Origin: Cyclobacteriaceae bacterium
Lineage (GTDB): Bacteria > Bacteroidota > Bacteroidia > Cytophagales > Cyclobacteriaceae
Direction of reading: 5' to 3'
NCBI GenBank assembly: GCA_016786495.1
Contig: JAEUUJ010000077.1
Location: 1 to 64,000 of the forward strand
DNA length: 64,000 nt
Made by a program: the position numbers and the translations under genes. Shown piece by piece: positions 5,269-49,878 of the stretch. How positions within the stretch are numbered: the first letter of the stretch is position 1; every line of letters starts with the position of its first letter. Below the pieces are notes generated by a model. It was not told the DNA's origin. It did not search any database and was given only the letters and a program-made list of their open reading frames with translations.

Positions 5269-6921
5269 ATGTTACCAACCATCAACCCAATCGAAACCCA
5301 AGCCTGGCAACGACTTGAAATCCACTTCCTGACCATGCAGGCTATGCACATGCGTGAGCTTTTTCAGGATGATCCGGATCGTTTTCAAAAGTTCAGTATT
5401 CCGTTTGAAGATATGCTGGTGGATTACTCCAAGAACATTATCACGGAGGAAACCCTGCGTCTCCTGAACGAACTTGCGCAGGAAACAGAATTGAAGCCTG
5501 CCATTGACTCAATGTTTGGTGGCGTAGCAATCAACAAAACAGAGAACCGGGCGGTATTGCATGTTGCGCTTCGTAACCGTACAAACTCCCCTATCCTCGT
5601 AGACGGCAAAGACGTCATGCCGGAAATCAACCGGGTACTTGATCAAATGAAACAATTCAGTAGCCGCCTGATCAGCGGAGAATGGAAAGGCTACTCCGGC
5701 AAACGCATTACCGATATTGTCAACATTGGCATTGGCGGATCGGACCTCGGTCCGTACATGGTAACCGAAGCCCTGAAGCCTTACTGGCAGGGTATCACTC
5801 CGCATTTCGTTTCGAATGTTGACGGAACGCATCTCGCGGAAACCGTGAAGCATCTCAATCCGGAAACCACCCTATTCATCATCGCGTCCAAAACGTTTAC
5901 CACCCAGGAAACGATGACCAATGCCACCAGCGCCCGCGACTGGTTCCTTTCTAAAACCAATCAAACCGGAGATGTAGCGAAACATTTTGTCGCGGTATCA
6001 ACCAATCAAAAAGCGGTAACTGAATTCGGCATTGCGGCCGAAAACATGTTTGTATTCTGGGATTGGGTTGGCGGACGTTACTCATTATGGTCGTCTATCG
6101 GACTTTCGATTGCTGCCACCATCGGGTACGACAACTTTGTTCAGCTACTGGACGGTGCCCACGCGATGGACAAACATTTCAAGAATGAACCGTTCGAGAA
6201 GAACATTCCGGTGATTCTGGCCTTGCTGGGAATCTGGTATAATAACTTTTTCGGTGCCGCATCAGAAGCAATCCTCCCCTACGATCAATACTTGCATCGG
6301 TTTGCTGCGTACTTCCAACAAGGAAACATGGAAAGCAACGGAAAGTCGGTTGATCGTGACGGACATCATGTGATGTATCAAACCGGTCCGGTGATCTGGG
6401 GCGAGCCGGGCACCAACGGTCAGCACGCTTTTTATCAGTTGATTCACCAGGGAACAAAAATGATTCCGTGCGATTTCCTTGCACCGGTGATTAGTCATAA
6501 TCCGGTCGGTGATCATCATACCAAATTACTTTCCAACTTCTTCGCGCAAACAGAGGCGTTGATGATGGGTAAAACCCGTGAGGAGGTAGAAGAAGAATTG
6601 AGCAAAAAAGGAATGGACAGCGATGCGATTGAGTTTCATGCTCCGTTCCGGGTGTTTGACGGCAACAAACCGAGCAACAGCATCATGTTCAAACAGCTTA
6701 CTCCCCGCACGCTGGGAAGTTTGATCGCGATGTACGAACATAAAATCTTCACGCAAGGTGTCATCTGGAACATTTTCAGCTTCGATCAATGGGGCGTTGA
6801 GCTCGGTAAGGTTTTGGCGAATAAAATTCTTCCCGAATTAGCCTCTGCGGATGAAATTGCGACACACGACTCATCCACCAACGGGTTAATTAACTATTTC
6901 AAACGATTGAAACGCGGTTAA
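5269..6921 (+). CDS. pgi: Glucose-6-phosphate isomerase
   Basis: Pgi interconverts glucose 6-phosphate and fructose 6-phosphate in the cytoplasm. The 550-residue length fits the long bacterial/eukaryotic-type enzyme. Clear motifs are [14 protein letters not shown] in the first SIS domain, the signature [13 protein letters not shown], and the C-terminal signature [11 protein letters not shown]. It starts with ATG at 5269, just after the tRNA terminator, and heads a glycolytic group with pfkA and a ROK glucokinase on the same strand. In the context of the starch genes downstream, it would take glucose 6-phosphate from glucokinase and from the maltose phosphorylase/beta-PGM route. Confidence 0.98.
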
Positions 6922-6931
6922 TTTAAACGGA

Positions 6932-6962
6932 GTTGGAAAGTGTTACCCAACCGTTAATTTTG
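6932..6962 (+). promoter_or_regulatory. Promoter of pfkA
   Basis: GTTG at 6932-6935, a 19-base spacer, then TAATTTTG at 6955-6962, an exact -7 box. It lies in the 61-base gap between pgi and pfkA, about 20 bases before the ATG, so pfkA can be transcribed separately from pgi. Confidence 0.55.
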
Positions 6963-6982
6963 ATGCCGTTCTATTCGTTGGA

Positions 6983-7966
6983 ATGAAAGACTCTATTCAA
7001 AAAATCGGGGTGTTTACGTCCGGTGGCGATGCCCCCGGAATGAATGCAGCCCTGCGTGCCGTGGTTCGTGCAGGCATCTATTACAAGAAAGAAGTGTTTG
7101 GCATCATGCGCGGCTATGAAGGCATGATTGACGGAGACATTGTGAAGCTTGGCGCGCGTTCAGTAGGCAATATCCTGCAGCGTGGCGGAACGATCCTCAA
7201 ATCGGCCCGCAGCATGGAGTTTAAAACTCCGGAAGGAAGAAAGAAAGCATACGATAATCTCCGCAAGGAAAAGATAGATGCGCTGATCGCCATTGGTGGT
7301 GACGGTACCTTTACCGGTCTTCATAAATTCTATGAAGAATTTCAGATTCCATCGATCTGCATTCCGGGTACCATTGATAACGACATTGCCGGAACAGATT
7401 ACACAATTGGTTACGACACAGCAACCAACACGTGCGTGGAGGCGATTGATCGCATCCGGGATACCGCACTTTCACACAGCCGCTTGTTTTTTATTGAAGT
7501 GATGGGCCGCAACTCAGGCTACATTGCGTTGCACAGCGGAATTGCCGGTGGTGCCGGCAGCATTATTATTCCGGAAGAAGATACAACCTTTGAACAGTTG
7601 TATGAGAAACTGGTTGCAGGCGAGGTCACATCCAAGAAATCAAACCTGGTTGTTGTGGCAGAAGGCTCCAAGATTGGCGGAGTAACCGAGCTTGCCCGGA
7701 AGGTAGCCGAACGTACCTCCTACTTTGATATCAAAGTCACCATCCTCGGACACCTGCAGCGTGGCGGAGCGCCTTCGTATTTCGACCGCGTGCTGGCCAG
7801 CAAGATGGGTGTCGCTGCCGTGGAAGGTGTACTGAACGGTAAGAACGATGCAATGGTTGGCATCCGCGATAATAAAATTGTCTTCAATTCATTTGATACG
7901 ATTATGACGCAGCATCATGAGATTGATGCTGAAGCCCTGCGTATCGCGAAGATTTTAACGATCTAG
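6983..7966 (+). CDS. pfkA: ATP-dependent 6-phosphofructokinase
   Basis: PfkA phosphorylates fructose 6-phosphate to fructose 1,6-bisphosphate, the committed step of glycolysis. The 327 residues match the short bacterial ATP-PFK. Motifs seen are SGGDAPGMN (13-21) for nucleotide binding, GGDGT (105-109; Gly after Asp fits ATP rather than pyrophosphate use), PGTIDND (128-134) with the catalytic Asp132, MGRNSGYIA, and the LGHLQRGG substrate segment. It has its own likely promoter and starts with ATG at 6983. Its neighbours, pgi and glucokinase, form a compact glucose-to-fructose-bisphosphate set. Confidence 0.98.
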   Translation: MKDSIQKIGVFTSGGDAPGMNAALRAVVRAGIYYKKEVFGIMRGYEGMIDGDIVKLGARSVGNILQRGGTILKSARSMEFKTPEGRKKAYDNLRKEKIDALIAIGGDGTFTGLHKFYEEFQIPSICIPGTIDNDIAGTDYTIGYDTATNTCVEAIDRIRDTALSHSRLFFIEVMGRNSGYIALHSGIAGGAGSIIIPEEDTTFEQLYEKLVAGEVTSKKSNLVVVAEGSKIGGVTELARKVAERTSYFDIKVTILGHLQRGGAPSYFDRVLASKMGVAAVEGVLNGKNDAMVGIRDNKIVFNSFDTIMTQHHEIDAEALRIAKILTI

Positions 7967-8023
7967 TTGTTATTTTATTTGTCTAATAATTAATCCTGGC
8001 CGTAATCAGGAATTTTACTGAAC

Positions 8024-9001
8024 ATGAAAGAAGTAACCGTTGGCGTAGATATTGGAGGGACCAATACCAAATTCGGAATTGTAGACCGCGAAGGAAACGT
8101 CCTGTTTCAGGATAGTATTTCAACTCAAGGATTCGAAGAATTCCGCGATTACCTCAGGGGGTTATCCGATGCCCTGCGCAAAGGCCTGCAGGCCCCGGGT
8201 GCAAACTATAAGCTGCTGGGAATTGGGGTGGGTGCCGCTAACGGTAATTACTATAAGGGAACCATCGAGCATGCCACGAACCTGAAATGGAAAGGCATCA
8301 TTCCCCTGGCAGAGATGCTTCGCGAAGAGTTTAATGTTCCTGCGCTCGTCACCAACGATGCCAATGCAGCGGCGGTGGGCGAAATGATTTACGGAGCAGC
8401 GAAAGGATTAAAAGACTTTATCGTGATCACACTGGGTACCGGTCTGGGCAGTGGCCTGGTGGCCAACGGACAATTGATTAACGGTAAACACGGCATTGCC
8501 GGAGAGTTGGGCCATACCACCGTGAATTATGCCGGTCGTTATTGCAACTGCGGAAAACGAGGTTGCCTCGAAACGTATGTTTCAGCAACCGGAATCAAGC
8601 GAAGCGTTTATAAACTGCTGGCTGATCACCTGGAGCCCAGTGAATTGCGCGGCATCAGTTTCGACAACCTGAATACCAAAATGATTACCGAAGCCGCCAG
8701 ACGCGGAGATATAGTCGCTCAGGAAGCTTTTGAATACACGGGACGAATTCTCGGAACCAAGCTGGCGGAAACGGTAGTTCACACCGATCCGGAAACGATC
8801 TTTTTATTTGGAGGTTTATCGTTGGCGGGTGACTTGATCTTTAAGCCAACCATCAAACACATGGAAGCTAACCTGATGCCGGTGTTCCGGGGTAAGGTTA
8901 AAGTGTTGCCCTCAGGACTTCAGAATCAGGCCGCACCGATTTTAGGTGCGAGCAGTTTGGTTTGGAATTACCTGGAAGAAAAGGGCAACGTGCTGGCGTA
9001 A
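8024..9001 (+). CDS. ROK-family glucokinase
   Basis: This is a cytoplasmic ROK-family sugar kinase, most likely glucokinase (glucose + ATP to glucose 6-phosphate). In its 325 residues are the phosphate loop DIGGTNTKFG (9-18), the TNDANAAAVGE segment with the catalytic Asp112, the zinc-site His164 in ELGH, and the CNCGKRGCLE cysteine cluster (174-183). There is no N-terminal helix-turn-helix, so it is a kinase and not a ROK repressor. Glucose specificity is inferred from ROK family conservation and the adjacent pgi and pfkA; N-acetylglucosamine or another hexose is possible. A weak TTTG-N21-TAATCAGG promoter precedes it (7978-8010). It ends 21 bases from the convergent GH57-like gene. Confidence 0.9.
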   Translation: MKEVTVGVDIGGTNTKFGIVDREGNVLFQDSISTQGFEEFRDYLRGLSDALRKGLQAPGANYKLLGIGVGAANGNYYKGTIEHATNLKWKGIIPLAEMLREEFNVPALVTNDANAAAVGEMIYGAAKGLKDFIVITLGTGLGSGLVANGQLINGKHGIAGELGHTTVNYAGRYCNCGKRGCLETYVSATGIKRSVYKLLADHLEPSELRGISFDNLNTKMITEAARRGDIVAQEAFEYTGRILGTKLAETVVHTDPETIFLFGGLSLAGDLIFKPTIKHMEANLMPVFRGKVKVLPSGLQNQAAPILGASSLVWNYLEEKGNVLA

Positions 9002-9022: not shown

Positions 9023-11419
9023 CTAATTCACTTTCACCCCGAGGTTCTCACCCAACAGACGGAACTGTTTCACCCATTCCTTTTTTGTACTAAGCGCTTC
9101 AATGTCTTCTTCGCGGGAAATTTCGAAATAAAGATTCTGGCTCTTATATAAAATAGGCTCAAGCCTGAATTGTTTTAACAACGGGAAGACGCGGTTAAGC
9201 CGGTCGATGCGTTTGGTGTTACTGCGCTCCGCACTGATGCGCTTCAATTCCTTGAAGATGCTCTCCCCTGCCATGCGCGAGATTTTTCCCGGATCCTCGA
9301 TCTTCAAATCCCACTTCACGAGTTCGTGCATTACGCGCTCCATCTCCTTGATGTTGATCTTCTCTCCATTAAAACAGTTCTGCAGGTCGGCATTCAGGAT
9401 ATATTCGAACGAGGTAATGTATGCCTTGGGGGTTGGTATGTCGTTGTTTGCCAGCGCATTGACCAACGGGTAATCGTGGTTATAAACCCTTCGCAGCGAT
9501 TCCTCCAGCTCACGCATGCTTTGCTGTGTAATCATGTCGAGGACTTTACGCTTCTCATCTTTGAACAATTGCCAGAGCGTATAATTGACCGGACCAAAGT
9601 ACGTTTGCATCAACCCGATAACATCCCCTAACCGGCCTTCGTCAAAAGCCGTGAGAACGCGCATCTGCATGCTGGCAAACTTATCGGGCTCCATATCAAG
9701 CGAAATGTTACCCATGATATTGTGCTTGCCCATGTGCATCACTATAAAGGTGAACTGCTTTTCAGAACGGGTCACGTTCGATTTAACTTTCGTTATTCCC
9801 AACGCCAGCTTCTGTTCGCCCGCTTCTTTCCGCATGAAAAACTCATTCGTTGCGGTGTAATTGAATAAGGGAGAATTTTCAGGATCTTCTTCAAACAGCG
9901 AAGCCACAGCATAATGCATTCCCACACGCGCGAGGTTTGTTTTGGAAGGCACAACATACTTCTGGTAAATGTTGGCGCCATTTTCCAATACCGGAATATT
10001 ACTTGGAGCTGCCTCCAGTCGTCTGATAAACTCATCTTCGAGCTCTCCGCCTCCCGATTGACTGACTAACTGAATCGCACGACACGCATATTGCATGATT
10101 TGCGTGGTTTCGATTCCGGAAATCTCATCAAAGAACCAGCCACAGCTTGTGTACATGAGCAGCGCATTACGCTGCATTTCCATCAAGCGCAGTACGCGGT
10201 TCTGTTCCACATCTCTCGTGCAGTGATCCCGCAAGAATCTTCTCACGGTTTCATCGTCACGTCTTAAAATAATATTGATATAGTCGTTTCGCGCGGCCCA
10301 CGGATCGCGTAAAATCTGCGAAGCCTCGCGTTCATACACTTCGTTCAGCTTGTCACGCAACCAGTCGAGTGATTCGCGCAGCGGCTTACGCCATTTCTGG
10401 GTCCACCCTTCGCGGCCGCCACTGTTGCAACCACAGTCATTACGCCAGCGCTCCACACCGTGTACGCAGCTCCATGAACTATTTTCATGAATCTGAATCT
10501 CATACCCCACCGTTACTTTCGAAATAAACTCTGCGTAGTTGGTAATGTGAGCGTGTTGCTGCTGATCGATATAATCGAGGCAAAATGCCAGCGCCATATC
10601 GCCATGCTTGTGGTGATGACCATACGTTTCGCCATCGGTAGCAATATGAACAAGTTGTGTTTCCTGCGAATGCGGGTCGAACGAATTCAGTAGTGCGTGT
10701 GCAAATTTCTGACCGTCATTCAGCAGTCCGTTAAACGCAACACCCTGAGCGATATCGCCATTGTAAAAGAATAAAACGATCGACTTTCCTGAGGGAAGTT
10801 TGCACAAATATGGCCGGCGGGTATCCACGCCACTGTCGCGCAACTCATGCCAATGCTCATCGCCCACGCGGCGAAACGCTTTTGCCTGCCGGGGCGCGAG
10901 CACGGTAAACCGGATGTCGTGTTCGGCGAGCAGTTCAAGTGATTCGGTATCAACTGCACTTTCCGCAAGCCACATCCCTTCCGGCTTGCGCTTGAAACGA
11001 TGTTCGAAATCGCGAATTCCCCAAACGATCTGCGTAATCTTGTCGTTCCGGTTAGCCAGCGGCATGATGATGTGATTGTACACCTGCGCCATAGCCGAAC
11101 CATGGCCCGAGAAATGTGCAACGCTTTCCCGGTCAGCCTCTAAAATAGCTTCATACGTCTCGCGGTCATATGCCTCCATCCACGAAAGCAGGGTCGGGCC
11201 GAAATTGAAACTGATTCTTGAATAGTTGTTGATGATATCCTTGATCACGCCATTCTCCAGAATCCGGGAGGCCGAATTCGGCGCATAACACTCTGCCGAA
11301 ATGCGTTCATTCCAGTCGTGGTACGGATGTGCGGAATCCTGAACTTCGATCGCCTCAAGCCAGGCATTTTCACGGGGTGGCTGATAGAAATGCCCGTGTA
11401 TACAAATGTACTTTTCCAA
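9023..11419 (-). CDS. GH57-like protein with DUF3536 domain
   Basis: This 798-residue cytoplasmic protein (no signal peptide) combines an N-terminal glycoside hydrolase family 57 barrel with a C-terminal DUF3536 region. The GH57 start motif HGHFYQPPREN lies at residues 8-18, followed by GHGSAMAQ, the ATDGETYGHHHKHGD segment and a WRNDCGCNSGG segment. GH57 members cleave or transfer alpha-glucans; the exact activity of DUF3536 proteins is not known to me. It is the last gene of the six-gene GlgE operon, 21 bases after glgB, so a role in storage-glucan turnover or branching is inferred. The start codon is TTG: an in-frame TAG lies 12 bases upstream and no ATG intervenes before the conserved motif. 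Confidence 0.85.
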   Translation of the reverse strand: MEKYICIHGHFYQPPRENAWLEAIEVQDSAHPYHDWNERISAECYAPNSASRILENGVIKDIINNYSRISFNFGPTLLSWMEAYDRETYEAILEADRESVAHFSGHGSAMAQVYNHIIMPLANRNDKITQIVWGIRDFEHRFKRKPEGMWLAESAVDTESLELLAEHDIRFTVLAPRQAKAFRRVGDEHWHELRDSGVDTRRPYLCKLPSGKSIVLFFYNGDIAQGVAFNGLLNDGQKFAHALLNSFDPHSQETQLVHIATDGETYGHHHKHGDMALAFCLDYIDQQQHAHITNYAEFISKVTVGYEIQIHENSSWSCVHGVERWRNDCGCNSGGREGWTQKWRKPLRESLDWLRDKLNEVYEREASQILRDPWAARNDYINIILRRDDETVRRFLRDHCTRDVEQNRVLRLMEMQRNALLMYTSCGWFFDEISGIETTQIMQYACRAIQLVSQSGGGELEDEFIRRLEAAPSNIPVLENGANIYQKYVVPSKTNLARVGMHYAVASLFEEDPENSPLFNYTATNEFFMRKEAGEQKLALGITKVKSNVTRSEKQFTFIVMHMGKHNIMGNISLDMEPDKFASMQMRVLTAFDEGRLGDVIGLMQTYFGPVNYTLWQLFKDEKRKVLDMITQQSMRELEESLRRVYNHDYPLVNALANNDIPTPKAYITSFEYILNADLQNCFNGEKINIKEMERVMHELVKWDLKIEDPGKISRMAGESIFKELKRISAERSNTKRIDRLNRVFPLLKQFRLEPILYKSQNLYFEISREEDIEALSTKKEWVKQFRLLGENLGVKVN

Positions 11420-11440: not shown

Positions 11441-13408
11441 TTAAGAACCCGCCTCTAATTCAAATTCGTTATCTTCTTTATGCAACTTAAGCACCGTCAT
11501 CCCTAACGGTGGTAAGGTTATCGACACCGAATAATCCTGATGGTGATACTTAACGGGTGAGGTGACCAAATCGCCAATATTCAGCACACCGCTTCCACCG
11601 TATTTGAGATTATCGGTATTAAAAACCTCGCGCCATTTTCCGCGAACCGGAACCCCGATGCGATAATGCTGGCGCGTTTCAGGAGTGAAATTGCAAACCA
11701 CAATCAATAAATCTTCTTTTTTGTCAGACTTACGCTGATAAGCAATTACGCTGTTCTCGCTGTCGGAGTAATCGATCCACTGAAACCCGCGCTGATCAAA
11801 CGCATAGTGATACAGCGCCGGCTCCGACCTGTAATGAACGTTCAGTTCAGACATGAAGGTTTTGATGCCGGCATGCGGTGCATACTGCAACAAATGCCAG
11901 TCGAGGCTTTTATCGTGACTCCACTCACCCGACTGCCCGATCTCACCGCCCATGAATACAAGTTTTGTTCCGGGATGGGTAAACATATACCCGAACAACA
12001 ATCGAAGATTGGCAAAACGTTGCCATTCATCGCCCGGCATCCGGCCGAGCAACGATCCTTTTCCATGCACAACTTCATCGTGCGACAGCGGCAACATGAA
12101 ATTCTCCGTAAATGCGTACATCACGCTGAACGTGATTTCGTTCTGATGGTACTTGCGGTGAATCGATTCTTTTTTGAAATACTGAAGCGTATCGTGCATC
12201 CAGCCCATCATCCATTTCTGGCCGAACCCTAATCCGCCCAGGTACGTTGGCTTGGAAACACCAGGCCACGCAGTCGACTCTTCTGCAATGGTAACAGCAT
12301 CCGGGAAGTTTGCATAAACGGTTTCATTAAACTCTTTCAGGAAGCTGATGGCTTCCAGGTTTTCATTACCACCAAACTGGTTCGGTATCCACTCGCCTGC
12401 TTTGCGCGAATAATCGAGATACAGCATACTCGCTACTGCATCCACGCGTAAGCCATCGATGTGATACAGGTCAAGCCAGAACAACGCGTTGCTGATCAGG
12501 AACGACCGCACTTCGTTACGACCGTAATTAAAAATGTAACTCTTCCAGTCGGGATGAAAGCCCTTTCGGGGATCGGCATGTTCATACAGATAAGTGCCGT
12601 CAAACTTATAAATGCCATGTTCATCGCCCGGGTAGTGTGAGGGAACCCAGTCGAGAATTACGCCAATGTTATTCTGATGAAGCGTATCGACCAACTGCAT
12701 AAATTCTTCCGGAGTACCGAAACGGCTTGTAGGCGCGTAATATCCTGTGATCTGATAACCCCATGAACCGAAAAAGGGATGCTCCATTACCGGAAGAAAC
12801 TCTACATGTGTGTAGTTCATTTCCTTCAGGTAGCTAACCAGTTCAACCGCAAGCTCGACATAACTTAGCGACCGGTTTCCGTCTTCCAGTTTTCTGCGCC
12901 ACGACCCAATGTGTACTTCATACACCGAATAAGGCTTTGCCAGGTCGGCCGTCTCCTTTCGGTTGGTCAGCCACTTTTTATCGTTCCACTTATAGTCGGT
13001 ATTCCAAACAACTGATGCCGTTTTCGGTGCCACTTCTGCGTAAGCGGCAAACGGATCTGCCTTTTCGAGATACTCACCGGTTGCGGAGTGGATTGCATAT
13101 TTGTACACCTCCCCTTTCTGCAGGCCGGGTACAAATACTTCCCAAATGCCGGATTCATCCCAGCGCGGATTCATTTTCGTTTGTGAATCATTCCATCCAT
13201 TGAAGTTCCCGATAACCGAAACGGATTTCGCGTTGGGTGCCCATACTGCGAAGTAAACTCCCTTTTTGCTTCCAAAGGACGTCACATGCGCACCAAGTTT
13301 CTCATACAACCTGAAGTGCTTTCCGGTTTTAAACAGATGAATGTCAAATTCCGTGAGCAGGGTTTGACTTTCGTCTGAACCACTTTTTATTGAAGTCTTT
13401 TTAGCCAT
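11441..13408 (-). CDS. glgB: 1,4-alpha-glucan branching enzyme
   Basis: GlgB moves an alpha-1,4 chain to a 6-position, making branches in glycogen-like glucan. The 655 residues contain a CBM48 domain (about 45-140, with NFNGW) and a GH13 barrel with the catalytic residues intact: nucleophile Asp323 in GLRVDAVASMLY, acid/base Glu376 in TIAEES, and the third Asp in LSHDEVVHGKGSL. A C-terminal all-beta domain follows. The YLDYSR motif is typical of branching enzymes. ATG at 13408, 23 bases after the TreS-maltokinase gene. In the GlgE pathway GlgB branches the linear chains that GlgE extends, so its place in this operon fits. Confidence 0.96.
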   Translation of the reverse strand: MAKKTSIKSGSDESQTLLTEFDIHLFKTGKHFRLYEKLGAHVTSFGSKKGVYFAVWAPNAKSVSVIGNFNGWNDSQTKMNPRWDESGIWEVFVPGLQKGEVYKYAIHSATGEYLEKADPFAAYAEVAPKTASVVWNTDYKWNDKKWLTNRKETADLAKPYSVYEVHIGSWRRKLEDGNRSLSYVELAVELVSYLKEMNYTHVEFLPVMEHPFFGSWGYQITGYYAPTSRFGTPEEFMQLVDTLHQNNIGVILDWVPSHYPGDEHGIYKFDGTYLYEHADPRKGFHPDWKSYIFNYGRNEVRSFLISNALFWLDLYHIDGLRVDAVASMLYLDYSRKAGEWIPNQFGGNENLEAISFLKEFNETVYANFPDAVTIAEESTAWPGVSKPTYLGGLGFGQKWMMGWMHDTLQYFKKESIHRKYHQNEITFSVMYAFTENFMLPLSHDEVVHGKGSLLGRMPGDEWQRFANLRLLFGYMFTHPGTKLVFMGGEIGQSGEWSHDKSLDWHLLQYAPHAGIKTFMSELNVHYRSEPALYHYAFDQRGFQWIDYSDSENSVIAYQRKSDKKEDLLIVVCNFTPETRQHYRIGVPVRGKWREVFNTDNLKYGGSGVLNIGDLVTSPVKYHHQDYSVSITLPPLGMTVLKLHKEDNEFELEAGS

Positions 13409-13431: not shown

Positions 13432-16400
13432 TTATTTCTTCTTTCTCTTATCCGCCTGCTCCTTTTCCTGCAAATAGCGACCCATATGATAGAGTATACC
13501 CCGTAACGGAACTGCAGCCCAGTCAGGCCGGCCATTTAATTCGTATCCGAGTTCATAAATCGACTTCTCAATCAGGAAGATTCGAATGAGTAGATCATTC
13601 TCGGCCGACAAGCTTCTCCCCATTCCCATGCGTTCCATGTACGCACCGAGATAAAAGCGGCTTACATAATGCTGCCATTGCTCCGCCCAAGCCTCGAGGA
13701 ATTCCATGTCGCGTTCGCGGTAGTTCTCATTCAACAGTATTTTGCCGAACGCAGCATAATGGAATGATCGCATCATGCCCGCCACATCTTTGAACGGACT
13801 TTTCTTCAATCTCCTTTCGTTAAACGAGAAACCGGGTTCACCTTCAAAGTCGATGATCACGAAGTCCTTACCGGTAAACAACACCTGACCCAGGTGGTAA
13901 TCGCCATGGATGCGTGTTTTAACGGCATTAATTTTTATCTGGTAGATTTCACTGAAGCATTCCAGCACCTGCGGCTCCATTTCAAGAACGCGCTTGGCCA
14001 GTACTTTGCTGGACTCATCGAGTTTTGGTATCGATGTTTTCAACAGGTTAAACCGGTCGCGAACAAGCTTTCGGAAAGAAGAATACAGCGACCGTTGATA
14101 ATTCGGCGTGAACGTTTCGGGTGCAAACGCGGCACTTGAAGAATCGGATGCAAGCGCCAAGTGCATTTCGGCCGTGCGCTGACCGAGACGAACAACCCGT
14201 TCATAAAATCCACGGCCGATAAACTCCTGGATAATATCCGGAGCTTCTTCAAAGTGAATGGACGGTGTGTTCACCAGTTTCGGCAACTTCTCCTTCTTAG
14301 CCTTGAGGATGACACGCTCGAAGAACCGGCCAACGGAGTCGGTCGACATAACCCATGAGTCACCCTGGTTTTCGACTTTCTCCTGCAGCAACCCGAACAC
14401 AATGGTTTGCCCCTCGTTGTCTTTGTACTCCACACTTCCCGCATACCGCGGAGAGTTGCCAAAGTTTGTATGCTCTGAAAGGAATCTGACCAATTCAAGG
14501 TCCGGATTGATTTCCTTCTCAATCTTACGATAGAACTTGAAGAAATACAGATCATTGTAAATGATCGAAGTATTGCTTTGCTCGGCTTTCAGGATTTTAG
14601 ATTCAACCTTATTGTTTGGAATCTTGATCTTGTTGAAAACGCTGGAGTTGAATTGCAGCTCACCTCCCTCATCGTCTTCGATCGATACCTTCTTATCCAT
14701 ACTCTGAAGCAGAAAATCCCGGAATATCCGGTCATAACTGCTGTCGAAGATAAAGCCGCTTTTCCCCTGAATGTCCGCGCGACAAATCACGCTTTGCGCC
14801 ATGTACTCTGCGCGATCGAGGATGTGCTCCGATAAAATAAACGTCATCGGCAGAAAGTACAGCTCCGGCAACCGTTGCACGTAATGTACCTCTATTAGTG
14901 AAAGGTAATGCGTTCCGCCATCAATCTTGAGCGGGATAACCTTATGCAAGGCAATCTTATTGATCACTTTTGCCTTCCCGCCAAACCACCGGCACTTCTT
15001 CATGAACACCGGAAGGATTTTGCGTTCGAATGTTCGCTGCTCGTTGTAGTTATTAAACAATTTCTCCCACGATACATCGGTTTTTAAAACCGGAAGTTCC
15101 GTGTTTCCGTCTTTCTTATCCTTTTGCTCGGCCTTATCAATCTGGAACCAGAAATAACCATAAGGACCAACGGTAATGGAATATTGACCCTCGCCAATGT
15201 TGATAAACCGGTTCTGACTGAATACCTCGGTAACTTCGCAATTTTTAAAATCGGAGAGATTCAGGGTAGTCGCCTGTGAGAACTGTGAAAGATTGGCAAC
15301 CACAATAATTTGCTGCTTTTCGTCGGACCGCAAAAAACAAAGTACCTTGTTGTTATCGGTGTCGATGAATTTCATTTCTCCCCTGCCAAACACCTGAAGA
15401 CGTTTACGCATAGCAATCACGTTCCGCATCCAGTACATCAATGACGAGGGGCTTTCGTCCTGAGTAGCTACGTTCACCGATTCGAACCGGTACACCGGGT
15501 CGGTAATCACAGGGAGATAAAGCTTTTGTGGGTTAGCAGTTGAAAACCCTGCGTTGAGGTTCATGTTCCACTGCATGGGCGTACGCACTCCGTGCCGGTC
15601 TCCCAAATAAATGTTATCCCCCATTCCGATCTCATCGCCATAATAGATTACGGGTGTACCGGGCAACGAGAATAATAACGTATAAAGCAGTTCAATCTTT
15701 CTCCGGTCGTTGCCAAGCATGGGCGCCAAACGTTTTCGAATCCCGGTATTGAACTTGGTCATCGCATCATCGGCATATGCCTTGAAGAGGTAATCCTTTT
15801 CTTCTTCGGTAACCATCTCCAGGCCTAGCTCATCATGGTTCCGGAGAAACAAGGCCCATTGATTGCCTTCGGGTGTCTCCGGTGTTTGCTCAATGATATC
15901 GATGATCGGGTAACTGTCTTCCGTACGCAGCCCAAGAAACAAACGCGGCATCAACGGATAGTTGAAATTCATGTGGCATTCTTTACCATCACCGAAGTAT
16001 GCCGCGGCATCTTCCGGCCAGAGGTTCGCTTCTGCCAGCAACACCACGTTTTTATAATGCCGGTCAACGTGCGTTCTGATTTTCCGTAAGAAAGCGTGCG
16101 TTTGCGGAAGGTTTTCACAATTCGTTCCTTCTTCTTCAAAAAGAAACGGAACAGACGATAACCGGAATCCGTCTACCCCCAGCTTGCACCAGAAGTCGAT
16201 GATCTTGATTACTTCCATCTGCACTTCCGGATTCTCGTAATTCAGTTCCGGCTCGTGCCGATAGAAACGATGCCAGTAATACGACTTCGCTTCGGTATCC
16301 CAACTCCAGTTGCTCGACTCTTCACTCTGGATGATTACCCGCGCATCCTTATATTTATCCGGTGTGTCGCTCCATACATAGAATTCCCGAAAACGTGAAC

Positions 16401-16779
16401 CGGGCTTTGCCTTTCGCGCGCGCTGAAACCAGGCGTGCTGATCAGATGTATGGTTGAGCAGGAGTTCGGTGATCACTTTTATTCCCCGGCTGTGCGCGTC
16501 TTTAATGAACGCTTTGAAATCAGCCAGCGTGCCGAAATCAGGATGCACATCGCAGTGGTCGGTAACATCATAACCATCGTCTTTCAACGGTGACGGATAG
16601 AACGGTAACAACCAGATTGTGTTGACGCCCAGATCTTCGAGGTAATCAAGTTTCTGAATCAACCCCTGAAAATCGCCTGTACCATCGCCATTGCTGTCGT
16701 AGAATGCGCGCACGGATAGTTCGTAGATGATGGCATCTTTAAACCATAACGGGTCGGTATGTTTGGTTTGCTTGCTCAT
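13432..16779 (-). CDS. TreS-maltokinase fusion; TreS nucleophile replaced by Ser
   Basis: The N-terminal ~550 residues are a GH13 trehalose-synthase (TreS) domain; the C-terminal ~500 are a maltokinase (Pep2/Mak) domain. Together they normally turn trehalose into maltose and then into maltose 1-phosphate, the GlgE donor. Length (1115) and motifs such as EEEGTNCENLP, GVRTPMQW and YYGDEIGMGDNI confirm the TreS family. The region-II motif, however, reads GFRLSSVPFL where TreS enzymes have GFRLDAVPYL: Ser208 (TCG, 16156-16158) occupies the nucleophile position. Glu250 and Asp316 remain. The kinase motifs HGDYHLGQV (Asp960) and DFEGEP (Asp977) are intact. I infer a working maltokinase and a dead or altered TreS. 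It sits 2 bases after glgE in the operon. Confidence 0.93.
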   Translation of the reverse strand: MSKQTKHTDPLWFKDAIIYELSVRAFYDSNGDGTGDFQGLIQKLDYLEDLGVNTIWLLPFYPSPLKDDGYDVTDHCDVHPDFGTLADFKAFIKDAHSRGIKVITELLLNHTSDQHAWFQRARKAKPGSRFREFYVWSDTPDKYKDARVIIQSEESSNWSWDTEAKSYYWHRFYRHEPELNYENPEVQMEVIKIIDFWCKLGVDGFRLSSVPFLFEEEGTNCENLPQTHAFLRKIRTHVDRHYKNVVLLAEANLWPEDAAAYFGDGKECHMNFNYPLMPRLFLGLRTEDSYPIIDIIEQTPETPEGNQWALFLRNHDELGLEMVTEEEKDYLFKAYADDAMTKFNTGIRKRLAPMLGNDRRKIELLYTLLFSLPGTPVIYYGDEIGMGDNIYLGDRHGVRTPMQWNMNLNAGFSTANPQKLYLPVITDPVYRFESVNVATQDESPSSLMYWMRNVIAMRKRLQVFGRGEMKFIDTDNNKVLCFLRSDEKQQIIVVANLSQFSQATTLNLSDFKNCEVTEVFSQNRFINIGEGQYSITVGPYGYFWFQIDKAEQKDKKDGNTELPVLKTDVSWEKLFNNYNEQRTFERKILPVFMKKCRWFGGKAKVINKIALHKVIPLKIDGGTHYLSLIEVHYVQRLPELYFLPMTFILSEHILDRAEYMAQSVICRADIQGKSGFIFDSSYDRIFRDFLLQSMDKKVSIEDDEGGELQFNSSVFNKIKIPNNKVESKILKAEQSNTSIIYNDLYFFKFYRKIEKEINPDLELVRFLSEHTNFGNSPRYAGSVEYKDNEGQTIVFGLLQEKVENQGDSWVMSTDSVGRFFERVILKAKKEKLPKLVNTPSIHFEEAPDIIQEFIGRGFYERVVRLGQRTAEMHLALASDSSSAAFAPETFTPNYQRSLYSSFRKLVRDRFNLLKTSIPKLDESSKVLAKRVLEMEPQVLECFSEIYQIKINAVKTRIHGDYHLGQVLFTGKDFVIIDFEGEPGFSFNERRLKKSPFKDVAGMMRSFHYAAFGKILLNENYRERDMEFLEAWAEQWQHYVSRFYLGAYMERMGMGRSLSAENDLLIRIFLIEKSIYELGYELNGRPDWAAVPLRGILYHMGRYLQEKEQADKRKKK

Positions 16780-16781: not shown

Positions 16782-18737
16782 TTACATGTTTGATTCGTGT
16801 ATTGACACTGTAAACAAATGAAAGGGAAGTTTATAGGGATTTAACTCCACGTAGTTCCACTCCTGCGTCCAGGTATAGTATTCATCGGTCATGATGTCGT
16901 GAAGCTTCACATTGAGTTTATCGCCCAGCTTCAGCAGGGCCTTTGGAAGCTGCAGGTATCCTGCGTGTTTGTTATGCGGGTCAAGGTTCACAACCGTGAG
17001 AACAATATCGGAAAGATCATCGGTCGCTTTTACATATGCGATCAGGTTAGCATCACTCACTTCGCAGAAATGAATATTCCAGGTTGATTGCAGCGCAGGG
17101 TGGTTTTTACGCGCCTTGTTGATGATCGTCATGATGTCGGTCATCCGGTTGGTGCGTTTCCAGTCATGCTTCTTGATTTCGTACTTCTCGGAATCGTGAT
17201 ATTCTTCCTTGTTCTGAACGGGAATGTTGTCGTAAAACTCATACGCAGGACCGTACACTCCGTAGTTCGATGACAAGGTTGCAGCCAGCGCGAGGCGCAG
17301 AATGAAGATATTCTCGTTCTGATACTGAAGGTGGTACGGAAGAATATCGGGCGTATTCGGCCAGAAATTTGGCCGGAAATAGTTTCGCGAAGGCCCGTGC
17401 ACCAGTTCGTTCACATACGCGGTTAATTCTTCTTTGCTCACACGCCACGTGAAATAAGTATACGATTGTGTAAACCCTGACTTGCCCAGCGAGGCCATAA
17501 TTTTTGGTCGTGTAAAGGCTTCCGAAAGGAAAATAATATCCGGGTAAAGTTTATGTGTTTCCGCGATGGCCCACTCCCAGAAAGGAATTGGCTTCGTGTG
17601 CGGATTATCAACCCGGAAGATGGTTACACCTTGCTCAACCCAATACAGAATAACCGACAGCAGTTCATTCCAGAGCTCCTGCCAGTTAGCGGTTTCGAAA
17701 TTAAACGGATAGATGTCCTGATACTTCTTGGGCGGATTCTCTGCATATTGAATCGATCCGTCCGGACGCTGCTTAAACCACTCGGGATGTTCTTTTACAT
17801 AGGGATGATCGGGCGCACACTGGTACGCGAGGTCAAGCGCAATGTCGATATTCAATTTGCGCGCTTCCGCGATGAGTTTTTTATAATCTTCGAGGGTTCC
17901 GAGTTCCGGATGAACAGCTTTGTGTCCGCCTTCATCACTTCCAATAGCCCAGGGCGAACCTGGTTCACCTTGTTCCGCGCGGACGTTGTTATTCTTTCCC
18001 TTCCGGTGGATTTTCCCGATGGGGTGAATCGGTGGCATGTACAATACATCAAATCCCATGGAAGAGATTCGCGGCAACAGCCGGATGACATCTTTAAACG
18101 TTCCATGCTTGCCCTCCAGCGAAGCGGAGCGCGGGAATAACTCGTACCAGCTGCTGAACGCAGCCTTAGGAAATTCAACGATGATCTCGAACTCGCGGTC
18201 TGCGCTTGTTTCAAATTCGCGCAGCGGATGGCGGTGCACCAGCTTTTCAAATTCAGGCGACAAAACCCATTTTACACGATCGGCATACTCGTATTTGCTA
18301 CTGAGTTTGGCACCCGCCCTGGTTACCTCATGATCCTTATCTTCTGATATCTTCTTCAACAACAGCTCCCCTTCCTGCAATTCAACGGAAACATCTACGC
18401 GGGCATGCGCCTTCTTCTTGAACCCGTCATACCACGTGTCGAGATGATCAACCCATGCCTGCACCGTGAACACATACGGAACTTTTTCGGTAACATAAAA
18501 TGATGCGTTCCAACTATCGTTGCCGAGATGCTGCAGTTCAACGGTGTTCCATTGGCCGGAGCCCTTTTTCTTGTAAAGAACTTCTGCCCGGATATGGTCG
18601 TGCCCGTCACCAAAAATGTCGGCCGTAACATCTACGCGCTCGCCCACGGTTCGTTTGGCCGGGTACCGACCGCCATCTACCTGGGGTTGAATATTTTCAA
18701 TGATTACACGCGATTGGCCTTTGAGATTGATCTTCAT
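16782..18737 (-). CDS. glgE: Alpha-1,4-glucan:maltose-1-phosphate maltosyltransferase
   Basis: GlgE transfers maltosyl units from maltose 1-phosphate to the non-reducing end of alpha-1,4-glucan. The 651-residue product has the N-terminal all-beta domain (about 1-115), a helical insert, and a GH13_3 barrel. Family-specific motifs are MPPIHPIGKIHRKGKNN, CAPDHPYVKEHPEWF and FRVDNPHTKP with nucleophile Asp377; acid/base Glu406 is in FLSEAFTRP. No signal peptide, so cytoplasmic. It lies 12 bases after a lipoprotein amylase gene and 2 bases before the TreS-maltokinase fusion that supplies its substrate; glgB follows. This arrangement identifies the GlgE route of glucan synthesis with high confidence. 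Confidence 0.97.
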   Translation of the reverse strand: MKINLKGQSRVIIENIQPQVDGGRYPAKRTVGERVDVTADIFGDGHDHIRAEVLYKKKGSGQWNTVELQHLGNDSWNASFYVTEKVPYVFTVQAWVDHLDTWYDGFKKKAHARVDVSVELQEGELLLKKISEDKDHEVTRAGAKLSSKYEYADRVKWVLSPEFEKLVHRHPLREFETSADREFEIIVEFPKAAFSSWYELFPRSASLEGKHGTFKDVIRLLPRISSMGFDVLYMPPIHPIGKIHRKGKNNNVRAEQGEPGSPWAIGSDEGGHKAVHPELGTLEDYKKLIAEARKLNIDIALDLAYQCAPDHPYVKEHPEWFKQRPDGSIQYAENPPKKYQDIYPFNFETANWQELWNELLSVILYWVEQGVTIFRVDNPHTKPIPFWEWAIAETHKLYPDIIFLSEAFTRPKIMASLGKSGFTQSYTYFTWRVSKEELTAYVNELVHGPSRNYFRPNFWPNTPDILPYHLQYQNENIFILRLALAATLSSNYGVYGPAYEFYDNIPVQNKEEYHDSEKYEIKKHDWKRTNRMTDIMTIINKARKNHPALQSTWNIHFCEVSDANLIAYVKATDDLSDIVLTVVNLDPHNKHAGYLQLPKALLKLGDKLNVKLHDIMTDEYYTWTQEWNYVELNPYKLPFHLFTVSIHESNM

Positions 18738-18749: not shown

Positions 18750-20297
18750 CTATTGAGTAAGTATAATGGTGGCATACGCGGACAGCGTAAGCTCGTTTTC
18801 GTTTAAGATTACTTCTTCACCGGACGCAAATCCGACCTTTCTAAAAGCGCTTACATCCGGACCGAGTTTTATGGTTACACGGTCCGCACTGATATTGTGA
18901 ATCACAAGCTCTGTCGCAGAATCAAAGGTGCGTTTAAATCCAACAATCGACGAGGGCAAGCCGGGTAAGGCTGCTATCGAACCAAAGGTTAGCGGCTTGC
19001 TGGAGTTCCGGTACTGAATCAGGTTGCGATAATGCTGGAGGAGCGATTTCGTGTTATCCGATTGCGTTTTAACATCCGCAACCGAATCTGCCAGATTAAA
19101 TTTCGGTGTCATCCAATGGGCTGTAATTTTTTCATCGCCCCATAGGAAAGGTTCGCGGATAAACTCATCGGGCTTCGTTCCGCGCATGCCCAGTTCTTCA
19201 CCGTAGTAGACGTAAGGCGCACCGGTGAGCGTGAGCAGAATAGAGGCTGCCACTCTTGCTTTGCCGGGATCGTTACCCAACTGACTCATGATCCGATTTT
19301 GATCGTGATTGGTCAGAATAGGCGCATCAATAAACTCCGGGTTGGAGGATTTAAAGAAGTCGATCTGCTCCACGTAATTCTCAATCAACTCCAGCGAGTC
19401 CTTTCCGGTATTAAGTGTTGCAATTATCCGACTTCCCAAATCGAAGTTAAAAAGTGCAGGCATCCCCTTGGCGAAAGGTGACACCTCGTTGCGATCTGTC
19501 GAATAAACCTCTCCTACCATGTAGATATCGGGCTTGATCTTAACAAGCTGCTCGCGATACCACGCCCAAAATTGATGACAGTCGTACGCGCGGTCGCTCG
19601 GATACAAATGCCGTGCAGCATCAAACCGGAAGCCGTCAACGTTCATTTCTTCGATCCAAAATCGGGCGACACCAACCATTTCATCGCGCACGCTATGATT
19701 ATCAAAATTCAGGTCGGGCATGTGACTGGAAAAGAAACCGTAGTAGTGCTCGGCAGTCGAATCGCCATTCACTTCATGCCATTGACGGATGTTATCCGAA
19801 TCAACCGTTACTTTCTTTTTTGAAATCTGATCGCGGATTGAGTCTTTCTTCGCCCACACAAAGTAATCCCGGTAGGGTGAATTTTTGTCGGCCATGGCCT
19901 GTTCAAACCAGGGATGATTGGTAGCGGTGTGGTTCAGCACCAAGTCGATGATCACATGAATGCCGCGCTTGTGTGCTTCAGTGGTAAACGTTTTAAAATC
20001 TTCCAGCGTGCCGTAATCCGGATGAATGTTCTTGTAATCCGAAACATCGTATTTATGATAGGACGGTGAAGGCATAACCGGCATGAGCCAGATACCGTTC
20101 ACGCCTAACGATTCAACATAATCCAGCTTTTGAGTGAGCCCTTTCAGATCGCCTTTTCCGTCACCATCGGCATCCGCAAATGACAGAACAAAAATCTCAT
20201 ACTTCACGCCATACGGCCACGCATCGCTCACAGTCGTTTTTGATCCGCACGACATGCAGACAAGAACAAGAAAAACTATGGCGAAAATACCTCTCAT
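18750..20297 (-). CDS. Lipoprotein GH13 alpha-amylase family enzyme (second)
   Basis: A GH13 enzyme of the alpha-amylase/oligo-glucosidase type, anchored as a lipoprotein: the signal peptide ends in VCMSC with Cys17. The barrel starts at about residue 28 (VKYEIFVLSFADADGDGKGD). Catalytic residues are intact: Asp226 in DGFRFDAARH, Glu263 in VGEVY, and the Asp of TNHDQNR. It has the TNHPWFEQA segment common to oligosaccharide-active members. An upstream extension in frame lacks the signal peptide; I chose ATG 20297 because it gives the lipobox and overlaps the previous gene's stop as ATGA, a sign of translational coupling. Likely role: periplasmic trimming of maltodextrin. The exact product is not predictable. 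Confidence 0.9.
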   Translation of the reverse strand: MRGIFAIVFLVLVCMSCGSKTTVSDAWPYGVKYEIFVLSFADADGDGKGDLKGLTQKLDYVESLGVNGIWLMPVMPSPSYHKYDVSDYKNIHPDYGTLEDFKTFTTEAHKRGIHVIIDLVLNHTATNHPWFEQAMADKNSPYRDYFVWAKKDSIRDQISKKKVTVDSDNIRQWHEVNGDSTAEHYYGFFSSHMPDLNFDNHSVRDEMVGVARFWIEEMNVDGFRFDAARHLYPSDRAYDCHQFWAWYREQLVKIKPDIYMVGEVYSTDRNEVSPFAKGMPALFNFDLGSRIIATLNTGKDSLELIENYVEQIDFFKSSNPEFIDAPILTNHDQNRIMSQLGNDPGKARVAASILLTLTGAPYVYYGEELGMRGTKPDEFIREPFLWGDEKITAHWMTPKFNLADSVADVKTQSDNTKSLLQHYRNLIQYRNSSKPLTFGSIAALPGLPSSIVGFKRTFDSATELVIHNISADRVTIKLGPDVSAFRKVGFASGEEVILNENELTLSAYATIILTQ

Positions 20298-22069
20298 TCT
20301 TCGATCGTAAAGACGTATGCGCTGTAGGCAGGAAGGTTCATGGAAAGCGTCAGTCCGGTTAATACCTGATCTGAATTTTTCCACAGCACATCGCGCAATT
20401 TATAGTTCTTGTCAGCTTTAAGCTGAAGTGCCGCGACTACGTTTTCAGGGATAACCAGTTTCACCGGCTTTACTTTTGAATCGAAGTTTGAAACGATCAG
20501 CAGCTTTTCCGATCCTGCATGGCGTACGAACGCATGAACATCATCGGAAACCGTCAGATCAAAATACCCACCGGACACAATTGCCGGATTCGTTTGGGAA
20601 AGGTTAAGCAGCGTGCTGTAGAATTTACGCAGGCTTTTCTGCTGTTCACTCAGTAAGGCGCCATCGAACGCACCGCCATTCATCCACTTTTGATGTTCGG
20701 GGACACCCCAGTAATCGAAAATGGTTGTCCGGCCGTCTTTTCCACCAAAGCCTTCTGCTCCGGCTCCCGGCTCGCCCACTTCCTGGCCGAAGTAAATCAT
20801 CACCGGACCCTGGTCAATCGTTGCACTGACTACCATGGCCGGAACAATTTTCCATGCGCTGCCGGCAAAGTCGGGCGATGCAATACGCTGTTCGTCATGG
20901 TTCTCAAGAAAGTGAAGCATGTTCGCGTTGATTCCGTCCAGGCTCTTCTGGATCACATCAATATCCTTTGCACTGCGTTTGTTGTTGATCAGGCCCCGAA
21001 GCGTATCGTATAACTGAACCTTGTCGTAGAGGTAATCGAACTTGCCGGTTTCAATGTAGTTTCGGTATTGCGCGGGATTATAAATCTCCGCCACGAAAAC
21101 GATCTCCGGGTTAACCGCTTTTACCTGCGGGATCGCCCAGTTCCAGAATTCAACCGGAACCATCTCGGCCATGTCGCACCGAAAACCATCTACCTTCTTG
21201 TTCGCCCAGAACACAAGAATGTCTTTCATCTTAATCCATGTGTCGGGAATCGGCTCGAAGTAAGCCTTGTTATTGTTCTGAATATCAACACCATAATTCA
21301 GTTTAACGGTTTCAAACCATTCATTCACACCCGGACTTGCCGTAAACTGATTGTTGCCGGTAACCTTGGCGGGAGTTTCGTTGAACTTGCCATCGGCAGC
21401 CGGATAAAGCGTATCCGCAGGAATGGATTTGAAGTCTTTGGGTACAACAAATGACTCACCCGGCAGGTAATAAAAGTTATTATTGGCCGAGAACTTAACC
21501 GTTTTATCATCCGTTTCCCCGAGGTCTTTAACCCCGGCAGGTTTCGCATCCGACTTGTATGCCCGGGCTATGTGATTCGGCACAAAATCGATCAGCACTT
21601 TCAGGCCGTTGCTATGAGTCCGCTCTACGAGTTGCTCGAACTCTTTCATCCGATCGGGTACGTTAACCGCCAGATCGGGATTCACATCGTAATAGTCTTT
21701 GATAGCATAAGGCGACCCAGCCCTGCCCTTAACAACGTCGGCATCGTCAAGCGCGATACCATATTTGCTGTAGTCGGTTAAAACCGCGTGTTCAATGACA
21801 CCGGTGTACCATACGTGGGTAACGCCCAGATCCTTAATCGATCGCAGCGCAACTCCGTTAATGTCGTTGAATTTCCCCACACCATTTTCGGCCAGCGTTC
21901 CATAAGGCTTGTTTAGGGCAGTCTTATTCCCGAAAAGCCGGGTCATCATCTGGTACACAACCATTTTTGTCGGCTTATTTTTCATAGGAGGTACGGGCGG
22001 AATTTTTTCAGCTTGCCGGGCACATCCAAACACGATAATGCACAGCAAAAAGGGGGCAATTTTGACCAT
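20294..22069 (-). CDS. Lipoprotein GH13 alpha-amylase family enzyme (first)
   Basis: The first gene of the six-gene GlgE operon encodes a 591-residue GH13 lipoprotein (lipobox IVFGC, Cys16). The barrel begins near residue 35 (MVVYQMMTRLFG) and carries Asp299 in DGFRCDMAEMVP, Glu328 in FVAEIY and Asp in LENHDEQR, so it should be active. A C-terminal beta domain follows (about 490-591). It probably cuts imported maltodextrin in the periplasm to maltose-sized products. Its protein differs clearly from the second amylase, so the pair is not a recent duplication. ATG at 22069. A LacI-type operator lies 55 bases upstream and a possible promoter ends 5 bases before the start codon. Confidence 0.9.
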   Translation of the reverse strand: MVKIAPFLLCIIVFGCARQAEKIPPVPPMKNKPTKMVVYQMMTRLFGNKTALNKPYGTLAENGVGKFNDINGVALRSIKDLGVTHVWYTGVIEHAVLTDYSKYGIALDDADVVKGRAGSPYAIKDYYDVNPDLAVNVPDRMKEFEQLVERTHSNGLKVLIDFVPNHIARAYKSDAKPAGVKDLGETDDKTVKFSANNNFYYLPGESFVVPKDFKSIPADTLYPAADGKFNETPAKVTGNNQFTASPGVNEWFETVKLNYGVDIQNNNKAYFEPIPDTWIKMKDILVFWANKKVDGFRCDMAEMVPVEFWNWAIPQVKAVNPEIVFVAEIYNPAQYRNYIETGKFDYLYDKVQLYDTLRGLINNKRSAKDIDVIQKSLDGINANMLHFLENHDEQRIASPDFAGSAWKIVPAMVVSATIDQGPVMIYFGQEVGEPGAGAEGFGGKDGRTTIFDYWGVPEHQKWMNGGAFDGALLSEQQKSLRKFYSTLLNLSQTNPAIVSGGYFDLTVSDDVHAFVRHAGSEKLLIVSNFDSKVKPVKLVIPENVVAALQLKADKNYKLRDVLWKNSDQVLTGLTLSMNLPAYSAYVFTIEE

Positions 22070-38798: not shown

Positions 38799-38820
38799 AC
38801 AAGTGAGGTATAATCAAGGT

Positions 38821-42353: not shown

Positions 42354-42381
42354 CACAAATCGTTTATTTATTAAAGTGAAA

Positions 42382-42402
42382 CAGGAGCCAATATGGCTCC
42401 TG
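42382..42402 (-). terminator. Intercistronic hairpin between susE and the amylase gene
   Basis: A perfect 8-bp stem (CAGGAGCC / GGCTCCTG) with a 5-base loop in the 76-base gap between susE and the amylase gene. On the minus strand it is followed by a short T-run only. It may be a partial attenuator or an mRNA 3'-end stabiliser that gives susCDE higher message levels. Confidence 0.5.
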
Positions 42403-42429
42403 TTCAAATATCAAACTACAAAGAAATCA

Positions 42430-43800: not shown

Positions 43801-43840
43801 TTCTTTCATTGTTATAGTAATGTTCTTCACCATAAACTTA

Positions 43841-45403: not shown

Positions 45404-45422
45404 AATGCTTTATTATCGCAGA

Positions 45423-48539: not shown

Positions 48540-48763
48540 AATTTAACGTTAAACATTCTATTCCAACCCTCGCAACGAACTTCGTGTCATCGCTTTTGTA
48601 ACGTCATGCTGCATCGCCCGCGCGAGCCGGCAAGCAACACGCATTACGATATGGTCTGCTTCATACATCTTCGTGCTGCCAAAACCTTCAGTTTCAACAT
48701 CGCTTCCTGAAAACTGCCCACCTTTTTCAATCGGTTGTGCAACAAGTTGCGGTGCAATTGCAG

Positions 48764-48771
48764 TATATTTG
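48764..48771 (+). promoter_or_regulatory. Putative -7 element of the LacI-family gene
   Basis: TATATTTG fits the Bacteroidota -7 consensus exactly, but it is only 4 bases before the ATG and has no clear TTTG box upstream. Confidence 0.3.
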
Positions 48772-48775
48772 TTTT

Positions 48776-49813: not shown

Positions 49814-49814
49814 A

Positions 49815-49842: not shown

Positions 49843-49878
49843 AAAGATGCAATCACTGCCCAGTAATTCCCGCAAGAA

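Follow-up and report, generated by a model that had tools for sequence, protein, structure and literature searches.

Retaining GH13 enzymes form a covalent intermediate through a nucleophile Asp. Such an intermediate has been reported for trehalose synthase (TreS) in a review (PMC11046441), according to which maltose 1-phosphate arises by either of two routes, TreS-Mak or GlgC-GlgM, each with a close link to trehalose. The TreS-Mak of Estrella lausannensis is, like the protein described here, a fusion feeding GlgE; both of its activities have been measured and its feed is trehalose (PMC7935935), whereas our protein lacks the TreS nucleophile and is known by sequence.

The TreS:Pep2 complex of M. 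smegmatis (PMC6509496; structure 5jy7) has in common with it the TreS fold, a Mak partner and the possible use of TreS as a docking platform, although TreS is there separate from the kinase, while the protein of the window is fused and without nucleophile. In that complex the Mak docking domain is the TreS C-terminal beta-sandwich, and mycobacterial TreS, besides docking the kinase, may steady its ATP lobe; with it the kinase rate rises modestly in M. tuberculosis and hardly at all in M. smegmatis (PMC6509496). The locus PUL18 of Pontibacter sp. SGAir0037 includes, like the window, amylases, GlgE, a predicted TreS, GlgB and a GH57 gene, but unlike the operon described here it also holds TreZ and TreY (PMC11206854), the comparison being one of gene sets and not of TreS sequences. 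Moreover, a glgE mutant of S. venezuelae that had no TreS activity because of a polar effect accumulated maltose 1-phosphate on maltose (PMC5042117). Pep2 phosphorylating maltose without TreS activity resembles the route proposed below; in S. venezuelae this is the condition of a mutant, whereas in the Bacteroidota clade a lineage would have become fixed in it.

The TreS-Mak gene of the window

The window, i.e. the whole stretch of 64,000 nucleotides from a Cyclobacteriaceae contig that was analyzed, carries the features collected in Table 1. The initial annotation had claimed that Ser (TCG) stands in place of the nucleophile Asp and that E250, D316, D960 and D977 are kept. The codons read agree with both statements, the translated frame being VDGFRL(S)SVPFLF around residue 208 (in brackets), with GAA at 16030-16032 for E250, GAT at 15832-15834 for D316, GAT at 13900-13902 for D960 and GAC at 13849-13851 for D977, all on the (-) strand.

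By sequence the protein belongs to both families, scoring 830 bits with NCBIfam treS_nterm (TIGR02456, cut-off 678) and 442 bits with TreS_Cterm (TIGR02457, cut-off 375), the latter standing for Mak/Pep2. What is missing is the catalytic Asp nucleophile of TreS, replaced by Ser208, with the acid/base E250 and the third Asp D316 present; in the alignment, column 208 is Asp in the three solved TreS 5x7u, 5h2t and 4lxf. The best solved match of the Mak domain was maltokinase 4o7o (E 9e-41, compared with 1.5e-8 for a glucosamine kinase), and residues K748, D960, Q965, D977 and E979, which we take to be the ATP, metal and base residues of Mak/Pep2, are all present in the alignment. Automatic annotation calls this nucleophile-less protein a trehalose synthase, a reason for caution in gene naming.

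Ser208 recurs in L039 and L089, the closest two relatives (97% identical and from separate assemblies), which makes a base-call error unlikely; together with the rest of the clade they rule out sequencing error, while decay in a single strain is ruled out by the absence of Asp in 100 of 176 full-length frames (see below).

A model of the fold was built with AlphaFold2 from 44 window and locus sequences (mean pLDDT 83, pTM 0.59; residues 337-349 and 385-442 unreliable). Its top Foldseek matches were solved TreS, 5x7u having a TM score by target of 0.91, and they include 5jy7, M. smegmatis TreS in complex with maltokinase, in which the TreS chain presumably has the nucleophile Asp. Sugar complexes of the inactive MutB D200A-D415N (4ha1, 4h7v) are also in the list; if D200 is the MutB nucleophile, as we assume, then a GH13 isomerase deprived of its nucleophile can still bind sugar.

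Table 1. Features of the window, with positions, strand and the basis of each assignment.
Feature	Positions	Strand	Basis
pgi, pfkA, ROK-family glucokinase-like kinase	5269..9001	(+)	NCBIfam; ROK model below cut-off
GH57-type protein	9023..11419	(-)	Conserved synteny; weak NCBIfam match; named after DUF3536/GH57 of Pontibacter PUL18 (PMC11206854) by parallel gene set, not by sequence comparison
GlgB branching enzyme	11441..13408	(-)	NCBIfam
TreS-Mak fusion gene (nucleophile-less TreS + maltokinase)	13432..16779	(-)	ORF, 1115 aa; NCBIfam
Maltokinase domain, residues 566-1096; K748, D960, D977, E979 kept	13492..15084	(-)	NCBIfam, alignment
TreS C-terminal beta-sandwich region, residues 441-552	15124..15459	(-)	Boundary chosen by the authors
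TreS (beta/alpha)8 barrel region, residues 12-440, pocket residues kept	15460..16746	(-)	Alignment; fold as in solved TreS
Codon 208, TCG (Ser) replacing GH13 nucleophile Asp	16156..16158	(-)	Codon read and alignment
GlgE-type maltosyltransferase, upstream gene	16782..18737	(-)	Motif FRVDNPHTKP (taken to be that of GlgE), homology, synteny; no NCBIfam GlgE model among matches
Two GH13 amylase-type genes, upstream in operon	18750..22069	(-)	ORFs, NCBIfam
GH65 and HAD hydrolase, the latter possibly a beta-phosphoglucomutase	36489..39465	(-)	Closest solved protein to GH65: maltose phosphorylase 1h54
Secreted GH13 amylase, SusE, SusD, SusC	39477..48374	(-)	
LacI regulator, GH31 glycosidase, MFS transporter (possible maltose importer)	48737..54135	(+)	

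Operon and starch/maltose neighbourhood

Genes for GlgE, maltokinase and GlgB lie together in the window, as in a GlgE pathway operon. TreS-Mak is preceded by the two GH13 genes and GlgE and followed by GlgB and the GH57-type gene, and the set from GlgE to GH57 is a conserved one. The Sus system named in the initial annotation is there as well: a starch/maltose locus with SusCDE, amylases and a GH65 maltose phosphorylase-like gene is found beside the operon, the GH65 protein matching solved maltose phosphorylase at 2e-241 and, next, kojibiose phosphorylase at 4e-120. A 1247-residue multidomain protein (27422-31165) interrupts the starch/maltose genes and adjoins genes for a xylose isomerase-like TIM-barrel (31457-32509) and a GFO/IDH protein (33029-34255).

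Among 78 nucleophile-less loci (from the 80 of 312 taken), GlgE is directly upstream in 73; the other five are L062, L097, L110, L054, in which GlgE is present in the locus beyond the spacing limit, and L091, at a contig end. GlgB is directly downstream in 67 and a GH57-type gene is found in 63 of the same 78; contig ends truncate several of these loci. At the genome level GlgE was found in 34 of the 35 nucleophile-less carriers searched, the exception being G382. The protein of this genome (L097:7516-10872) combines absence of the nucleophile with E250D, Ala209 and Arg at kinase position 965; GlgB and the GH57-type gene adjoin it, and GlgE was found neither in the locus nor in the genome. As for the Sus genes in relatives, G136 has a SusC-like (39%) and SusD-like (27%) pair about 30 kb off, across conserved genes, together with a GH65 piece (71%) cut by the end of the G136 sequence compared. 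In G017, 55 kb surrounding the operon gave no match to the Sus/maltose genes.

Spread of the nucleophile loss

Relatives were all sampled within GTDB Bacteroidota, from genome contigs (80 loci of 312 taken), from 60 genomes of the family, from 291 of the order, of which 49 matched at E 1e-150, and from 395 of the phylum, of which 118 matched at E 1e-80, up to 30 loci being taken in each of the last two surveys; residues were read in the loci returned by or later fetched from these surveys, a subset of the matches. Full-length TreS-Mak frames among the loci read numbered 176 (150 distinct sequences), with Asp208 in 76 and another residue in 100: Pro in 40, Ala in 28, Ser in 21, Gly in 7 and Thr in 4. 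Asp208 is absent from 78 of the 80 loci mentioned above, a sample biased towards the clade of the Ser protein since this protein was the query.

Thinning at 92% identity left 121 representatives, 57 without and 64 with Asp208. All 64 of the latter have Asp-Ala at residues 208-209, while the 57 have Pro (24), Ala (16), Ser (12), Gly (3) or Thr (2) at 208 and Ser (49), Asn (7) or Ala (1) at 209. When the full-length tree is rooted on L207, the 57 non-Asp representatives group together as a single clade (support 1.0). In a tree of the TreS part with six stand-alone TreS (all Asp) as outgroup, 55 of them form a clade (0.995), and the Saprospiraceae-type L166 and L167, both with Thr208, group with the Asp clade (0.845), so that the nucleophile was lost once or twice. 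Alignment and tree, the check that the initial annotation had proposed, thus place the loss across a clade, with residue 208 varied (P/A/S/G/T). What appears to be new here is a predicted TreS-Mak of the GlgE pathway without the TreS nucleophile, across one Bacteroidota clade; no report of a nucleophile-less TreS, or of a Bacteroidota stand-alone Mak with GlgE, was found in the literature searched, which for the most part did not extend to subscription papers.

Constraint on the barrel, the pocket and the kinase

Residues D67, D71, H110, R206, N252, W254, H315, D316 and R399, which with E250 and position 70 we take from GH13 structures to be the glucose site, are present in 57 of 57 non-Asp representatives. 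E250 is kept in 55, being Asp in L093 and L097, and position 70 is Tyr in 32 and Phe in 25. Fitch parsimony inside the clade gave no change at the nine pocket residues, two at E250 and seven at position 70, compared with a barrel median of two; position 208 changed 19 times, more than 94% of barrel positions, and only among P/A/S/G/T. At least 19 changes occur at 41 positions of residues 12-552, and it is only at 208 that they are confined to small residues. In the kinase half, K748, D960, D977 and E979 are kept in 57 of 57.

We also compared divergence at matched GlgE distance, for which those representatives that have GlgE, 95 out of 121 (51 of 57 non-Asp, 44 of 64 Asp), were placed in four bins with unequal numbers of pairs, the pairs being non-independent. 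Pairwise distances were used, since maximum-likelihood tree lengths were inconsistent, that of the barrel varying with the taxa (11.1 with 57, 6.0 with 51). In the non-Asp versus the Asp clade the barrel diverged 1.4-2.1 times as much (0.178/0.084, 0.209/0.130, 0.269/0.173, 0.346/0.252), Mak 0.66-0.90 times (0.246/0.338, 0.288/0.439, 0.376/0.493, 0.539/0.599) and the TreS C-domain 0.95-1.26 times (0.271/0.215, 0.317/0.312, 0.426/0.400, 0.470/0.493); in every bin the barrel is less divergent than GlgE. Free drift of the barrel was ruled out, as the Asp clade has 221 invariant barrel positions and 154 of them are at least 95% conserved in the non-Asp clade. Our reading is that constraint would have shifted from TreS to Mak, with a barrel that does not appear to decay and a pocket that seems guarded.

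Function of the nucleophile-less TreS domain

Without the nucleophile the TreS double-displacement is not expected to run, and the TreS of the operon would therefore not isomerise. We favor, at a probability of about 0.7, a barrel that would be a non-catalytic, sugar-binding pseudoenzyme domain in an operon fed by maltose through Mak, GlgE and GlgB. Amylases would make maltose from starch, and the maltose, once imported, would be phosphorylated by the Mak domain, whose activity is predicted; GlgE would add the maltose 1-phosphate to glucan, and GlgB would branch it. Where trehalose is converted into maltose at all, this would be the work of a separate Asp-bearing TreS-Mak, here the one located beside TreZ/TreY. 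Such a GlgE route is well supported by the sequence, and that maltose feeds it is what we infer. The nine pocket residues with no change point to a retained sugar site, and the pocket suggests binding of maltose or glucan ends that goes beyond docking. More tentatively, the barrel may still bind sugar and may hold or regulate the kinase by docking it, stabilising its ATP lobe or sensing maltose or glucan. A GH13-like barrel in non-enzyme use is that of rBAT, an amino-acid transporter heavy chain; rBAT is eukaryotic and has an unrelated role, the likeness lying in the use of the barrel.

Several facts count against this explanation. E250 and D316 are also kept, needlessly for a domain without chemistry; an intact TreS-Mak with TreY/TreZ is also present in the genome of the window; G382 is a carrier without GlgE; and Sus/maltose genes do not always adjoin the operon. 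As a counterpoint on lost catalytic residues, a GH13 enzyme with His in place of the third Asp is active (PMC5347038).

An inert scaffold, in which a barrel free of ligand is merely the platform for kinase assembly, in the way that mycobacterial TreS serves Pep2, is the next reading, and we regard it as unlikely though worth weighing. The interface by which the TreS C-terminal beta-sandwich docks Pep2 shares elements with the ATP site (PMC6509496), and in our clade the rate of the C-domain is about kept with the barrel relaxed 1.4-2.1 times. However, an empty pocket would not be expected to show nine unchanged residues around a position 208 that changes fast and only among small residues, and other Bacteroidota have a stand-alone Mak at the corresponding place in the operon, so that a TreS scaffold is not always needed. 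The word scaffold, as used in the initial annotation, undersells the barrel, given the nine pocket residues that have remained unchanged throughout the clade.

A pseudoenzyme domain is also far more probable to us than a barrel that still catalyses without a carboxylate nucleophile, for instance as an inverting GH13 that works on maltose beside the kinase, with E250 as the acid and with phosphate, a sugar hydroxyl or some other small nucleophile taking the place left empty. The frozen pocket, with E250 in 55 and Asp in two of 57, D316 in 57 of 57 and a residue 208 that is always small, speaks for it, and engineered glycosynthases have a small residue at the nucleophile position, as is the case for 208 here. 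Nevertheless, Pro, Ala, Ser, Gly and Thr are interchangeable at 208, E250 is Asp in L093 and L097, the only basic residues that the barrel gains among the clade-specific changes listed come from Lys to Arg (24), Arg to Lys (328) and Asn to His (79), and a GH65 maltose phosphorylase-like protein is already encoded in the window; we know of no natural nucleophile-free GH13 chemistry. Normal trehalose synthase activity with another nucleophile such as Ser/Asn209 is the least credible reading of all, for although Ser or Asn occupies 209 in 56 of 57 proteins without Asp208 and Ala in 64 of 64 with it, L097 has Ala at both positions, neither Ser nor Asn is a carboxylate, and a separate copy with Asp is present in all 15 genomes that have TreY.

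If the maltose-fed reading is true, imported maltose would be the real feed in part of the Bacteroidota, and starch uptake would be tied directly to glycogen storage. Disarmed and intact paralogues in one cell would also offer a natural pair for the role of the TreS domain on the kinase.

Trehalose genes in the carrier genomes

The trehalose side was surveyed for TreY, OtsA and a second TreS-Mak. The carriers correspond to 61 genome handles, five of which (G340, G342, G369, G378 and G383) are repeats by coordinates, leaving 56 genomes. The genome of the window gave no OtsA match. Its contig C80 encodes GlgX, TreZ and TreY fused to MalQ, along with another TreS-Mak, in which Asp is present. As regards a trehalose-fed form of the pathway, the TreS of the operon is without nucleophile and the Asp-bearing copy is elsewhere in the genome. 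Contamination was considered, as the composition of C80 differs somewhat; this TreS-Mak is also found in the close relatives G337 and G338 (93% and 92%), as is TreY, and we take the contig as genuine, short of proof. The Asp-bearing TreS-Mak by TreZ/TreY makes it probable that trehalose and maltose are still interconverted in this organism, by a separate protein. Trehalose independence, another of the early claims, may therefore describe the operon, which looks so, but not the organism. On C80 (L146:11738-16108) TreY is fused to a MalQ-type 4-alpha-glucanotransferase, and the GlgX-TreZ-TreY/MalQ cluster faces the intact TreS-Mak.

TreY was found in 15 of the 56 carriers, all of them with a second, Asp-bearing TreS-Mak (L151-L164, and L165/L183, which is partial); in Chryseolinea serpens the two copies are L054 and L164. 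Just one of the 41 TreY-less carriers has such a second copy (G361, L181). OtsA was above the cut-off in eight of the 41 TreY-less genomes (G033, G044, G339, G357, G358, G360, G361 and G380), so some of these probably make trehalose; matches in G374 and G384 were weak and below the cut-off. In 33 of the 56 carriers none of the three was found: TreY, OtsA (above the cut-off) or a second TreS (at E 1e-100). Six of those 33 are listed as 100% complete (G078, G136, G017, G201, G230 and G284), and G356, with L102, is a MAG chromosome record; the named carriers with the nucleophile-less copy alone are all MAGs, and absent genes can thus be gaps. For comparison, eight genomes of the same family have only an Asp-bearing TreS-Mak, with TreY in six; it is absent from G003 and G004, and GlgE was not found in these two genomes either. 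A Fisher test on the first 33 carriers gave 2e-8, related genomes being non-independent.

Mirror cases and kinases without TreS

The second copy of Phaeodactylibacter luteus (L181:1097-4372, G361:C112) has an intact TreS motif and an altered kinase, with 735 Asn, 962 Gln, 965 Lys and 977 Asn, and the other copy (L110/L167) has Thr208 and the usual kinase residues, the damage being complementary. In G004, one of the two genomes without GlgE, L185:7065-10391 (C89) keeps the TreS Asp, and its kinase has 960 His, 965 Arg, 977 Gly and 981 Asp. From L181 and L185 the two halves of TreS-Mak seem to have been lost separately.

Among the phylum matches listed, 13 genomes match in the kinase half only, the frame being either separate, with some 540-590 residues, or next to GlgE. 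We fetched ten loci with a stand-alone Mak, from several Bacteroidota families, and nine of them show the order GlgE / stand-alone Mak / GlgB without TreS (L218, L219, L220, L221, L222, L223, L224, L226 and L227), GlgB lying about 1.1 kb further on in L222. The tenth, L225, has neither GlgE nor GlgB beside it; G615, G664 and G713, whose loci are not among the ten, belong to the same genus and may resemble it. Elsewhere in one of these nine genomes, G501, an Asp-bearing TreS-Mak is also encoded (L231). A tree of the Mak domains places L225 among the Asp-bearing proteins, and the other nine stand-alone kinases attach to the branch that separates the fusion clade with Asp from the one without.
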